From assembly GCA_030272155.1 (NCBI GenBank), contig CP126207.1:2666001-2730000 (forward strand): 64,000 bases of DNA, in the 5' to 3' direction. Origin of the DNA: Tetradesmus obliquus (taxonomy: Eukaryota; Chlorophyta; Chlorophyceae; Sphaeropleales; Scenedesmaceae). Shown here one piece after another: positions 1 to 57,070 of this stretch. The notes beneath the pieces were generated by a model. That model did no database searches, was not told the origin of the DNA, and saw nothing but the letters and a program-made list of their open reading frames with translations. Position 1 is the first letter of the stretch; the number at the start of each line of letters is the position of its first letter. The translations under genes and the position numbers were made by a program.

Positions 1-1
1 C

Positions 2-259
2 CCCGAGGCGGTGGACATGGGCATCCAAGAGTTGCTGAACCCCGACGGGGAGGACAAGCCGCTGGAGGCAGATGCGAATGGGGGCATGACGGGCATCCCT
101 GTGCAGGTGCAGGTGGTGGCTGGGCTGAACAGCGCTGCCTCTTGGAGCTTTGTGGTGGGCGCGGCGCCGGTGGCTGCGCTGGGGGTGTGGTTTTGGTGCC
201 GGCAGCTGAAGTGGGCTGTGAGTGGCGCGTTTGCGCTGGCGCGCTACGCCTTCAGCTGA
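2..259 (+). CDS. 3' end of a membrane-protein gene (partial)
   Basis: An open frame enters from the left edge and stops at TGA 257-259, giving about 85 residues. The part seen has an acidic stretch (PEAVDMGIQELLNPDGED), then a hydrophobic helix-like segment (GAAPVAALGVWFWC) followed by RQLKWAVSGAFALARYAFS at the C terminus. It looks like the last exon of a membrane-anchored protein; I do not recognise the family. The frame is supported because two decayed copies of the same sequence follow immediately downstream, which is how other last exons in this window behave. The start and upstream exons lie outside the window. Confidence 0.5.
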   Translation, partial: PEAVDMGIQELLNPDGEDKPLEADANGGMTGIPVQVQVVAGLNSAASWSFVVGAAPVAALGVWFWCRQLKWAVSGAFALARYAFS

Positions 260-369
260 ACAGCTGGCTGGGAGGTGCGTGAACGCCACATGCACAACTT
301 GTTGTTACAATCATCCCATATGCAGCTTGTTGTGTTGGGCAGCAGCGGTGTGGCTCTTGGGTATTGTGG

Positions 370-55800: not shown

Positions 55801-56394
55801 GTTGCTTGTCCTCCAGTGATACCCATGCTGTTACTCGAGAATTCATCTGAAGGCATTCCCCCACCTGATGCTGCATGTGTCGCTTGATCACTCTCACCAG
55901 CTTGCCTGCCTGCCACACCCGCTGTGCTGCTGCTGTCACTGCAGGTGCCAGCCTGCAACTACCAATTCGTCCCCACAGGCACCTTCAAACTGTCCGGCAT
56001 GACAGCTAGCATCGGCCAGCTGGTGAACGTCACTTTCAGGCTGGCTCCCCTTGGTTCTAAGCGGGCAGCAGCAGACGCCTGTGTCACTTCGGATGCTGCT
56101 GCGCCTCTAGTGGGAGTGGGCAGGTACCCTAACTGCCCAGGGACCAGCTCTAAAGCAGTATCAGCTACATCCACGAAGGTTGGCAACTCTAAGCCATCAG
56201 CTGTGGTGCTTCCAAAGCTCGTCAATCTGGCAAGGCCAGCGTGCAGCGAAGGCCAGTACAGCATGGTGGTCAGGGTCCCAGCCATCTTCAGGTCTGAGAA
56301 ATGCTTCAACATTGGCGTGCAGCTGGCTGACGGCACCACACGGCGGGCCGTGGTGGCTATCTCTGCCCGCAAGGCAGCTGCAGCGCTGCCCTGA
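49838..56394 (+). CDS. Secreted RCC1/sushi/Ig-like/EGF-like protein, frame-damaged
   Basis: A signal-peptide-like start (MSCRAGCLLAWTILAVLCIM, 49838) lies one frame off the RCC1 block, which starts by 49953. Seven RCC1-type repeats (CWGxNxxGQLGDGT pattern, conserved Cys pair) run to 50991, interrupted by TGA at 50091-50093 where the other repeats have Arg. Three CCP/sushi-like modules follow: 51444-51659, 52056-52271 (both exactly 216 nt) and 52503 to about 52945. Later exons: about 53918-54054, 54341-54376, 54725-54820, a Cys-rich and Ig-like exon from about 54992 (VLKNDKAVSN, AGSVGADSFTYTYVAQ), an EGF-like part (CGMDRAAGDCDAATGRCNCP) ending at about 55664, and 55945-56394. At about 55470 one A is missing in an A run, shifting the frame. 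It is probably an extracellular-matrix or adhesion protein; it may be a recent pseudogene or contain sequence errors. The exon junction after 52945 is uncertain. Confidence 0.7.
51185..51420 (+). pseudogene. Copies of the first sushi-exon start
   Basis: 51203-51225 (CATGCAGCGGCCAGCCCAGC) and 51313-51405 (CTGQPSTTNLALPDISALSC plus PGTSPGSK) precede the functional exon at 51444, which reads CTGQPSTTNPALPDNSALSC. Both follow (C/T)GCAG. Confidence 0.75.
51760..51945 (+). pseudogene. Copies of sushi-module exon parts
   Basis: 51762-51840 repeats the end of the first sushi exon (TSWASSCIGGT, FAPDGADAK). 51876-51940 repeats the start of the second (PWCSGTPNSADMPPGAA) and ends in TAA. Confidence 0.75.
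53560..54182 (+). pseudogene. Copies around the KLQLNITLTEAV exon
   Basis: 53768-53815 (SKLQLSIRSKKQDQ) precedes the exon at about 53918-54054. 54108-54180 repeats that exon's end (TLDRLHTQI, stop TAA, GSGIS...ALR/GTGAGT) with a nonsense codon. Confidence 0.6.
54288..54340 (+). repeat. (CTG)n about 17 units at an acceptor
   Basis: Pure CTG run ending CTGCAG/GCCTTCGG. The following exon is only 36 nt (LRQAGVEYAES), fits phase 1 on both sides and ends in TCAG/GTGAGG. Confidence 0.85.
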
Positions 56395-57070
56395 GCTGAC
56401 TGAAAAGGGTGCAGTGACGCCAGTACAGCGTGGCCAGCAGGGCCCGAGGCACCTTCAGGCTGCAGATGTTCTAACATTGGCGTGCAGCTTGCGGACGGCA
56501 CCACGCGGCGGCCTGTTGTTGCGGTCAGTGCCCTCAAGGCAGCTGCACAGCCCTGAACTGATTGATACCAGAGGCTGGCACATCAGCTGTGGTGCTTCCA
56601 CAGCTGGTCAAATTGGTCTAGCCAGCGTGCAGTGAGGGGCTGTACAGCATGGCAGTCAGGGTCCCAAGCGTTTTCAGGTCTGAAAAGTGCTTCAACATTG
56701 GCGTGCAGATGGCTGACGGCACCACATGGCGGGCTGTTGTTGCAGTCGCTGCCCTGAAAGCAGCTGCATCGCCCTGAACTGGTCTTGGTGTGGCGCAAAA
56801 CTGCTTGGGCTGTGCTGTTTGATGTTGCTGACCAGTACAGCATGACAATCAGGGTCCCAGCCGCTTTCAAGTGTCAGAAAGCGGCTTGCTGAAAGCACCG
56901 CACGGCGGACTGTTGTTGCGGTGCCAGCTGCTTATCTGCTACTGCATGCCAGCTGATTAGCTGCTTGTTTCTTGAGCGTGCGCCAGGGCCCTTAGGCGGG
57001 GCTGTTGCCTCCCTTTCTGTACAGCATGGCGTCACAAGGAGCACTTGTCAGCGGCTGTTTGATGCTGATG
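56395..57070 (+). pseudogene. Three or four copies of the last exon beyond the stop
   Basis: About 56420-56560, 56585-56785 and 56820-56935 repeat parts of the final exon (RVPxxFRSEKCFNIGVQ(L/M)ADGT, RRAVVA(I/V)SA(R/L)KAAA, then CCCTGAACTG). They accumulate frameshifts; in the last a TGA follows the GCTT of 'GGCTTGCTGAAAG'. A faint remnant (GGGCTGTTGCCTC, TACAGCATGGCGTC) is at about 57000-57030. Confidence 0.8.

Follow-up and report, generated by a model that had tools for sequence, protein, structure and literature searches.

Mutually exclusive and duplicated exons are neighbouring exon copies within one gene that are full-length and spliced. The exon copies that occur in introns of the green alga Tetradesmus obliquus are of a different kind, with only 4 of the 135 detected here being full-length.

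A closer parallel is the potato RdRp gene, where, according to Ma, Lan and Niu (2016, PMC4974935), one boundary-crossing tandem duplication produced a new intron. As in T. obliquus, a direct tandem duplication runs over an intron–exon junction there, so that the start of the exon is present twice, each time with identical acceptor signals. The potato case was a one-off, and its new intron came to be spliced through the recruitment of a donor, whereas in T. obliquus there are many events per genome, and most exon-start fragments have no partner donor and seem to be silent. The tandem-duplication route to introns has also been reviewed (PMC3443670), and the model outlined in that review likewise involves local direct duplication at exon/intron signals. 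There, the duplication of an AGGT-containing exon segment yields a new intron, while in T. obliquus the extra fragments lie within existing introns. In Tetrahymena, the repeated exon/intron units of 90-bp LRR exon arrays are attributed to unequal crossing over (PMC6564038). Those arrays, as described there, comprise whole exons of one gene family, whereas the T. obliquus copies are partial, decayed exons spread across unrelated genes. What sets T. obliquus apart from the known cases is scale, the incompleteness of the copies, and an excess of copies that end at the splice site. Among the titles and abstract openings listed in a literature search, none reported pervasive partial exon copies in the introns of a green alga; several of the lists were cut short and subscription journals were covered thinly, so this is not proof of absence.

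Local direct repeats in the window and across the genome

The window is a 64-kb stretch of DNA (positions 2,666,001–2,730,000 of contig C17) within a 104.66-Mb genome of 17 contigs. Its GC content (50–61% per 2 kb) and the predicted introns (median about 320–350 bp in ab initio models) are in keeping with the 57% GC and mean intron length of 462 bp given for T. obliquus in a published account (PMC5966456). GCA/TGC trinucleotide arrays are very frequent across the whole window, and its blastn self-comparison was run after GCA masking (4226 bases masked). This comparison returned 127 pairs, comprising 115 direct and 12 inverted. Less than 1 kb separated the copies in 100 of the direct pairs, 14 overlapped and 1 was far apart, so that 114 close direct pairs stood against 12 inverted ones. 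When the window was divided into 1-kb bins, 41 of the first 57 contained a copy, compared with 1 of the last 7.

The best-characterized ladders are those of the ketoacyl-CoA synthase (KCS) gene (Table 1), whose product matches PF08392 (E=1.1e-111), PF02797 and PF08541, and several of whose modelled exons are matched by a KCS family search of the T. obliquus genome. Each of KCS exons 5 to 13 has one to four partial copies, which lie in an adjacent intron or immediately beyond the final exon (E≤0.01). At the same threshold, exons 1–3 had no local copies and exon 4 had GCA-rich matches only. Between 36.5 and 44.6 kb, an exon was touched by 13 of the 18 direct pairs, where rotation gave an average of 8.5 (p=0.026). 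Together with the preponderance of close direct pairs, the KCS copies bear out the central claim of the initial annotation, namely that tandem, decayed exon copies form ladders inside introns.

Table 1. Exon copies and associated repeats in the 64-kb window (percentages are identities)
Feature	Position	Strand	Remarks
Seven partial copies in an array, unit about 95 bp	8361..9093		GCA/TGC runs interleaved
Copy ladder around predicted exon 11298-11420	11185..11793	-	
Tandem copies, 3' part of predicted exon 14715-15287	14234..14847	-	
Exon-end fragment, pair with 25579-25675	25329..25425	-	94%; both end at AG/GT; ab initio gene model; gene finder called both as exon
Exon-end fragment, pair with 31257-31342	31025..31110	-	95%; copy of the end of predicted exon 31259-32019; weak flank similarity
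KCS gene, 13-exon model	36505..44331	+	ab initio; best-supported gene of the window
KCS exon 5 (39233-39356), copy of interior 36-bp piece	39438..39473	+	97%
KCS exon 6 (39580-39760), exon-end copy	39843..39895	+	85%; donor GTAAG
KCS exon 7 (40175-40350), exon-start copy	39996..40076	+	95%; homology upstream of acceptor ≤36 bp
KCS exon 7, exon-end copy plus intron flank	40420..40581	+	exon part 86%; homologous flank more diverged
KCS exon 8 (40704-40864), interior fragment copy	40608..40644	+	84%
KCS exon 9 (41103-41197), exon-end copy	41296..41351	+	93%; exon CAG codon is TAG in copy
KCS exon 9, second exon-end copy	41423..41464	+	81%
KCS exon 10 (42046-42258), distal exon-start copy	41659..41731	+	74%
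KCS exon 10, proximal exon-start copy	41776..41888	+	94% over 113 bp; homology stops at acceptor
KCS exon 10, exon-end copy	42427..42603	+	about 120 bp of homologous intron flank
KCS exon 11 (43135-43249), three-rung exon-start ladder	42701..43047	+	rungs at 42701, 42882, 43000 (83%, 85%, 96%)
KCS exon 11, exon-end copy	43365..43424	+	95%; homology stops at donor
KCS exon 12 (43800-43927), exon-start copy	43684..43748	+	91%; 1-bp deletion
KCS exon 13 (44207-44331), exon-start copy	44062..44116	+	91%; acceptor CAG is CCG; flank homologous (44007-44116)
KCS exon 13, three interior-fragment copies downstream	44339..44621	+	at 44339, 44439, 44566 (82%, 87%, 75%)
Fragment, 93 bp, pair with 51438-51530	51307..51399		92%; spacer 38 bp
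Tandem copies of about 200 bp	56195..56781		82%; last dense block before ladders thin out

An origin of the spacers elsewhere in the genome was considered and rejected. No KCS spacer was seen at another place (5.2 kb; 107 matches judged by eye, 40 of 265 candidates scored), and the matches inspected consisted of GCA-type runs and of exons and their copies. When the genome was searched with Pfam for KCS exons, 71 matches were obtained (E≤0.001), with clear copy-like repeats visible by eye in the window gene only; this search was set aside as a measure of rate, with short copies falling below its threshold.

Several other repeats occur in the window. A 478-bp self-complementary fold-back (84%; 20496-20973) has GCA repeats on one side (20423-20494) and GCT repeats on the other (20982-21028), and a 13-bp minisatellite (around AGTGACACCACCT) is found inside larger repeated blocks at 6761-7898, with one stretch, 7350-7435, inverted. 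TGCC tetranucleotide arrays at 18280-18594 were read as exon by the gene finder. Inverted dispersed copies at 46995-48134 and 62487-63746 (77–79% over about 860 and 380 bp), which are perhaps a mobile element, are accompanied by a direct pair at 46108-46291 and 62154-62343. Beyond the ladder region, at 62729-62977, two copies of about 123 bp lie next to each other in tandem and, being 98% identical, are young.

For the wider genome, 20 loci of 10 kb were sampled at set positions (1 Mb on each of the 17 contigs and 3 Mb on three), and repeat pairs were scanned in 26 10-kb pieces, consisting of these 20 loci and six pieces of the window, with one dinucleotide shuffle of each. The scan yielded 307 direct pairs (292 at <1 kb) and 27 inverted pairs, and the 26 shuffles yielded none. 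Close direct repeats were present at 16 of the 20 sampled loci, with the window lying above the average locus in pair number (139 direct pairs in its six pieces versus 168 in the 20 loci). At two loci near 1.0 Mb on C16 and C17 (L023 and L024), direct repeats cover 5913 and 10000 of the 10000 bases in few pairs, and are thus long or satellite-like repeats rather than ladders.

Exons were taken from ab initio models, other than those of the KCS and D1 protease genes, and were produced by a gene finder with fixed consensus splice scores that sometimes took in fragments as exons (for example, in locus L025). Learned splice matrices were dropped when the first training drifted to tiny exons. Counts of exon copies omit exons that were <40 bp or >40% GCA-masked, as well as genes with <300 coding bases. 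On this basis, 47 of 164 exons at the 20 other loci had a direct local partial copy, spread over 12 of the loci, and none of the 164 had an inverted one. In the window, 21 of the 28 exons tested had a direct copy and none an inverted one. The assignment of such copies to every gene in the initial annotation was not confirmed, and in the D1 protease gene only one of seven exons has a copy. The trait is genome-wide and present in most of the sampled loci, and is weaker there than in the window.

In the 20 sampled loci, the 47 of 164 exons compare with 29 of 144 matched intron segments with direct copies (1 inverted, 17 of 144 intron-to-intron). The corresponding window figures were 19 of 35 intron segments with direct copies, 3 inverted and 12 intron-to-intron. 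Since intron segments have local direct copies too, targeting specific to exons need not be invoked. Furthermore, we infer that a fragment paired with a constrained exon would stay detectable for longer than two intron copies that are both drifting.

The copies have aligned lengths of 17–182 bp and about 72–100% identity to the exon, are stacked up to five deep in the ladders, and are separated from the exon by spacers with a 10th–90th percentile range of 55–300 bp (for spacers of 30–400 bp). On sequence grounds, it is unlikely that the ladders are an artefact of assembly, because of this range of identities and because they occur on 12 contigs, in 12 of the 20 sampled loci. Local false duplications resulting from heterozygosity or misjoins, the form that such an artefact would take, are scarcely credible as a source of copies so short, up to 28% different from the exon, and stacked in ladders.

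Sidedness, splice signals and decay of the copies

The 135 copies are BLAST hits rather than independent events, and a pair could be counted from both sides where the fragment had been called an exon. Moreover, matches inside one ladder are non-independent, so the p-values and implied standard errors given here are optimistic. Exon-end copies lay downstream of the exon in 43 cases and upstream in 3, and exon-start copies lay upstream in 37 and downstream in 5, as the initial annotation had described; the remaining hits comprised the 4 full-length copies and 43 interior ones. A tandem duplication across a splice junction necessarily places end copies downstream and start copies upstream, and sidedness is therefore no separate evidence for anything beyond boundary-crossing tandem duplication.

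Splice signals in the copies were not preserved in the way the initial annotation had suggested, with the donor kept far more faithfully than the reading frame. The donor GT was kept in 26 of 40 exon-end copies where exon identity predicted 32.5, and the first five donor bases were identical in 19 of the 40 where 24.4 were expected. The acceptor AG of exon-start copies was kept in 28 of 33, against an expected 27.9. A further signal comes from the cut end of the fragment, i.e., the end at which a partner splice site would complete an exon. A donor occurred near the cut end of only 2 of 33 exon-start copies, compared with 150 of 650 control positions (23%), and this depletion would be accounted for if fragments that could be spliced as exons had been removed. 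In exon-end copies, where the missing partner would be an acceptor, one lay close to the cut end in 10 of 40 (versus 267 of 791 control positions), which is no clear depletion, and so the argument for selection draws on the exon-start copies.

The scarcity of partner donors also speaks against the suggestion that the copies feed alternative splicing, as does the D1 protease gene (L034). Its product is identical to PDB chain 1fc7 at 354 of 356 aligned residues (193/193 and 161/163). The 1fc7 protein is from Scenedesmus (now Tetradesmus) obliquus, and the two residues that differ (Q for H and S for F, both in exon 4, L034:4053-4185) are perhaps strain variation. An intronic fragment of exon 6 (L034:4746-4796; 86% over 51 bp) is missing from the crystallised chain, the 1fc7 sequence running straight across the junction.

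Decay of the copies was followed by codon position. For ladders of two or more copies, changes specific to a copy numbered 53/58/88 at the three codon positions (84 synonymous, 115 not), and those specific to the functional exon numbered 6/6/36 (38 synonymous, 10 not). Functional exons look constrained, whereas the copies appear to evolve almost neutrally. Their third positions do show a mild excess, part of which may stem from changes that the exon lineage underwent in the interval from one duplication to the next. Across all pairwise differences, counted with 2 of the 135 copies omitted on account of a gene model containing an internal stop, 408 of 713 (57%) fell at third positions, with a higher share in young pairs; by our own rough estimate, the neutral expectation is about 44–50%, below what was observed. 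GC content by codon position (0.73/0.50/0.69) was considered as a cause and does not explain the excess. Gap columns that were not a multiple of three were found in 22 of the 135 copies. The initial annotation further held that divergence rises with distance from the exon, and this is so for several KCS exons; for the set as a whole, the farther rung was less similar than the nearer in 9 comparisons, more similar in 10 and equal in 9.

It is conceivable that the fragments are kept by function, as splicing decoys or as alternative or nonsense-mediated-decay-coupled exons, with the exon part conserved while the intron drifts. Such a role would agree with the third-position excess, strongest in young pairs, and with the 32 copies whose similarity runs >30 bp into the intron (class A). 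In these, exon differences amount to 0.07–0.16 per site over the last 80 bp, compared with 0.18–0.41 over the 90 bp of intron next to the exon (and 0.02–0.17 farther out, a distance reached by well-preserved repeats only), and the exon has fewer indel columns (16 of 1818) than the intron (420 of 4157). However, the changes specific to copies depart only mildly from an even spread across the codon, GT has been lost from 14 of 40 exon-end copies, exon-start copies lack donors, and gaps break the triplet register in 22 of 135 copies. A partial fragment is, moreover, no substitute for an exon, and the D1 protease fragment does not appear in the solved chain. Considering these points, maintenance by function seems quite improbable.

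Where similarity ends relative to the splice site

The extent of similarity beyond the exon was assessed in 73 boundary copies, 7 of the 80 expected-side copies being omitted where a terminal exon or the locus end was too near. The initial annotation had assigned the copies 50–150 bp of flanking intron. Similarity does extend >30 bp into the intron in 32 of the 73, but it ends at 11–30 bp in 12, while another 29 lose it no more than 10 bp from the splice site, and homology covers at least 80% of the unit's intron part in 13. The copies that stop at the splice site are not an older class, since their exon divergence is 136/1599 (8.5%), compared with 170/1792 (9.5%) in the >30-bp class. Simulations of boundary-crossing duplication followed by decay, built on simple rates, place 4–15% of copies within 10 bp versus the 29 of 73 observed, and 2–13% versus 14 of 33 when exon identity is at least 92%. 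Among the stop-at-splice-site copies, 27 of the 29 could be compared (2 were omitted for spacer length), and no similarity between the spacer and the copy's flank was detected in 21 of the 27.

For simple decay to give the observed pattern, flanks would have to change 3–4 times faster than the adjoining fragment. This could arise if introns were hypermutable through slippage and indels, in which case plain tandem duplication and decay would suffice. Intron parts are in fact rich in indels, and a multiplier of 3 gives an extension split of 0.42/0.15/0.42 versus the observed 0.40/0.16/0.44. The same multiplier, however, gives 0.21 at identity ≥92%, where 0.42 was observed, and a multiplier of 4, which gives 0.45 for those pairs, raises the overall figure to 0.64 versus 0.40. 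Thus, about three fits the whole set, about four fits the pairs at ≥92%, and no single value fits both. With a flank of >30 bp surviving in 32 of the 73 pairs, often at an identity similar to that of the exon, hypermutable introns are a doubtful explanation.

Another source of dissimilar flanks could be unequal exchange between diverged homologous chromosomes, whereby fragment and exon would come from different haplotypes and their introns would be divergent from birth. The flanks of many young pairs cannot be aligned, and in young pairs (≥88% identity, three flank classes) 99 of 146 differences are at third positions, as might be anticipated for alleles. Yet the third-position bias does not differ clearly with and without flank homology (94/170 vs. 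79/136), the flank is about as similar as the exon in many pairs, and a very high allelic divergence would presumably be required. On this evidence, an origin by exchange between haplotypes is improbable.

A further possibility, which we advance tentatively, is that intronic exon fragments are in continuing sequence exchange with the real exon, through exchange or conversion limited to exon sequence, while the spacers drift. Homologous flanks were present in 22 of 28 proximal rungs and 8 of 17 most distal rungs (Fisher p=0.0497), and in 16 of 28 single rungs. A test for patchy (mosaic) differences was not significant (Fisher p=0.054), so homogenisation is something that we infer rather than observe.

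The layout of a GTPase gene (L025) is the pattern expected from exchange within exon copies. Its order is E', S, E', S, exon, with two identical 137-bp units of fragment plus spacer before the exon, and the flank of the far rung matches for 5 bp only. In a genome search, a 200-bp piece holding the spacer matched only itself and its neighbour. The gene was recognised from a joined piece of its predicted product, which contains a GTP-binding domain of the EF-Tu type, and is presumably of the U5 snRNP type. Our own ab initio model of L025 appears to absorb fragments as false exons.

A proposed origin of the ladders and its consequences

Recurrent duplication around exon boundaries followed by decay, the process put forward in the initial annotation, fits most of the data, because the copies are direct in orientation and closely spaced, are sided as described, retain >30 bp of flank homology in 32 of 73 cases, and show polarised substitutions. 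It falls short over the excess of copies that stop at the splice site. The explanation that we consider reasonably probable combines local tandem duplications across splice junctions with near-neutral decay, selection against complete exons, and homogenisation limited to exon sequence.

According to this proposal, small local tandem duplications would be frequent across genes, with spacers mostly of 55–300 bp. Where a duplication spans an exon–intron junction, the copy joined to the body of the exon would keep its function, and the other would become an intronic fragment with one splice site and part of the exon, placed upstream if the acceptor was duplicated and downstream if the donor was. 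Selection would then remove fragments recognisable as whole exons, leaving survivors that mostly have no partner splice site and decay almost neutrally. Once present, a fragment would itself constitute a repeat of exon sequence, from which unequal exchange or slippage could add further rungs. Exchange might also keep the exon parts more alike than the spacers, thereby generating copies in which similarity breaks off at the splice site. The outcome would be intron inflation, along with a supply of decayed raw material for the rare gain of an intron or exon.

Elsewhere, tandem duplications across exon boundaries have been described as single instances, and in T. obliquus they look like a standing process that affects about three in ten exons at the sampled loci. 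Such a process would help to account for the length that has been reported for introns in T. obliquus. The ladders also provide a dense natural series of events in which to study the way incomplete exons are passed over during splicing and the first steps towards new introns and exons. As a practical matter, gene finders will take in the fragments as false exons. The copies that end at the splice site in excess are a concrete anomaly. If exon-limited exchange is indeed responsible for them, then introns would be archives of coding sequence that are copied into from the exon, or that the exon receives from, and exon-limited concerted evolution would be operating across the whole genome.
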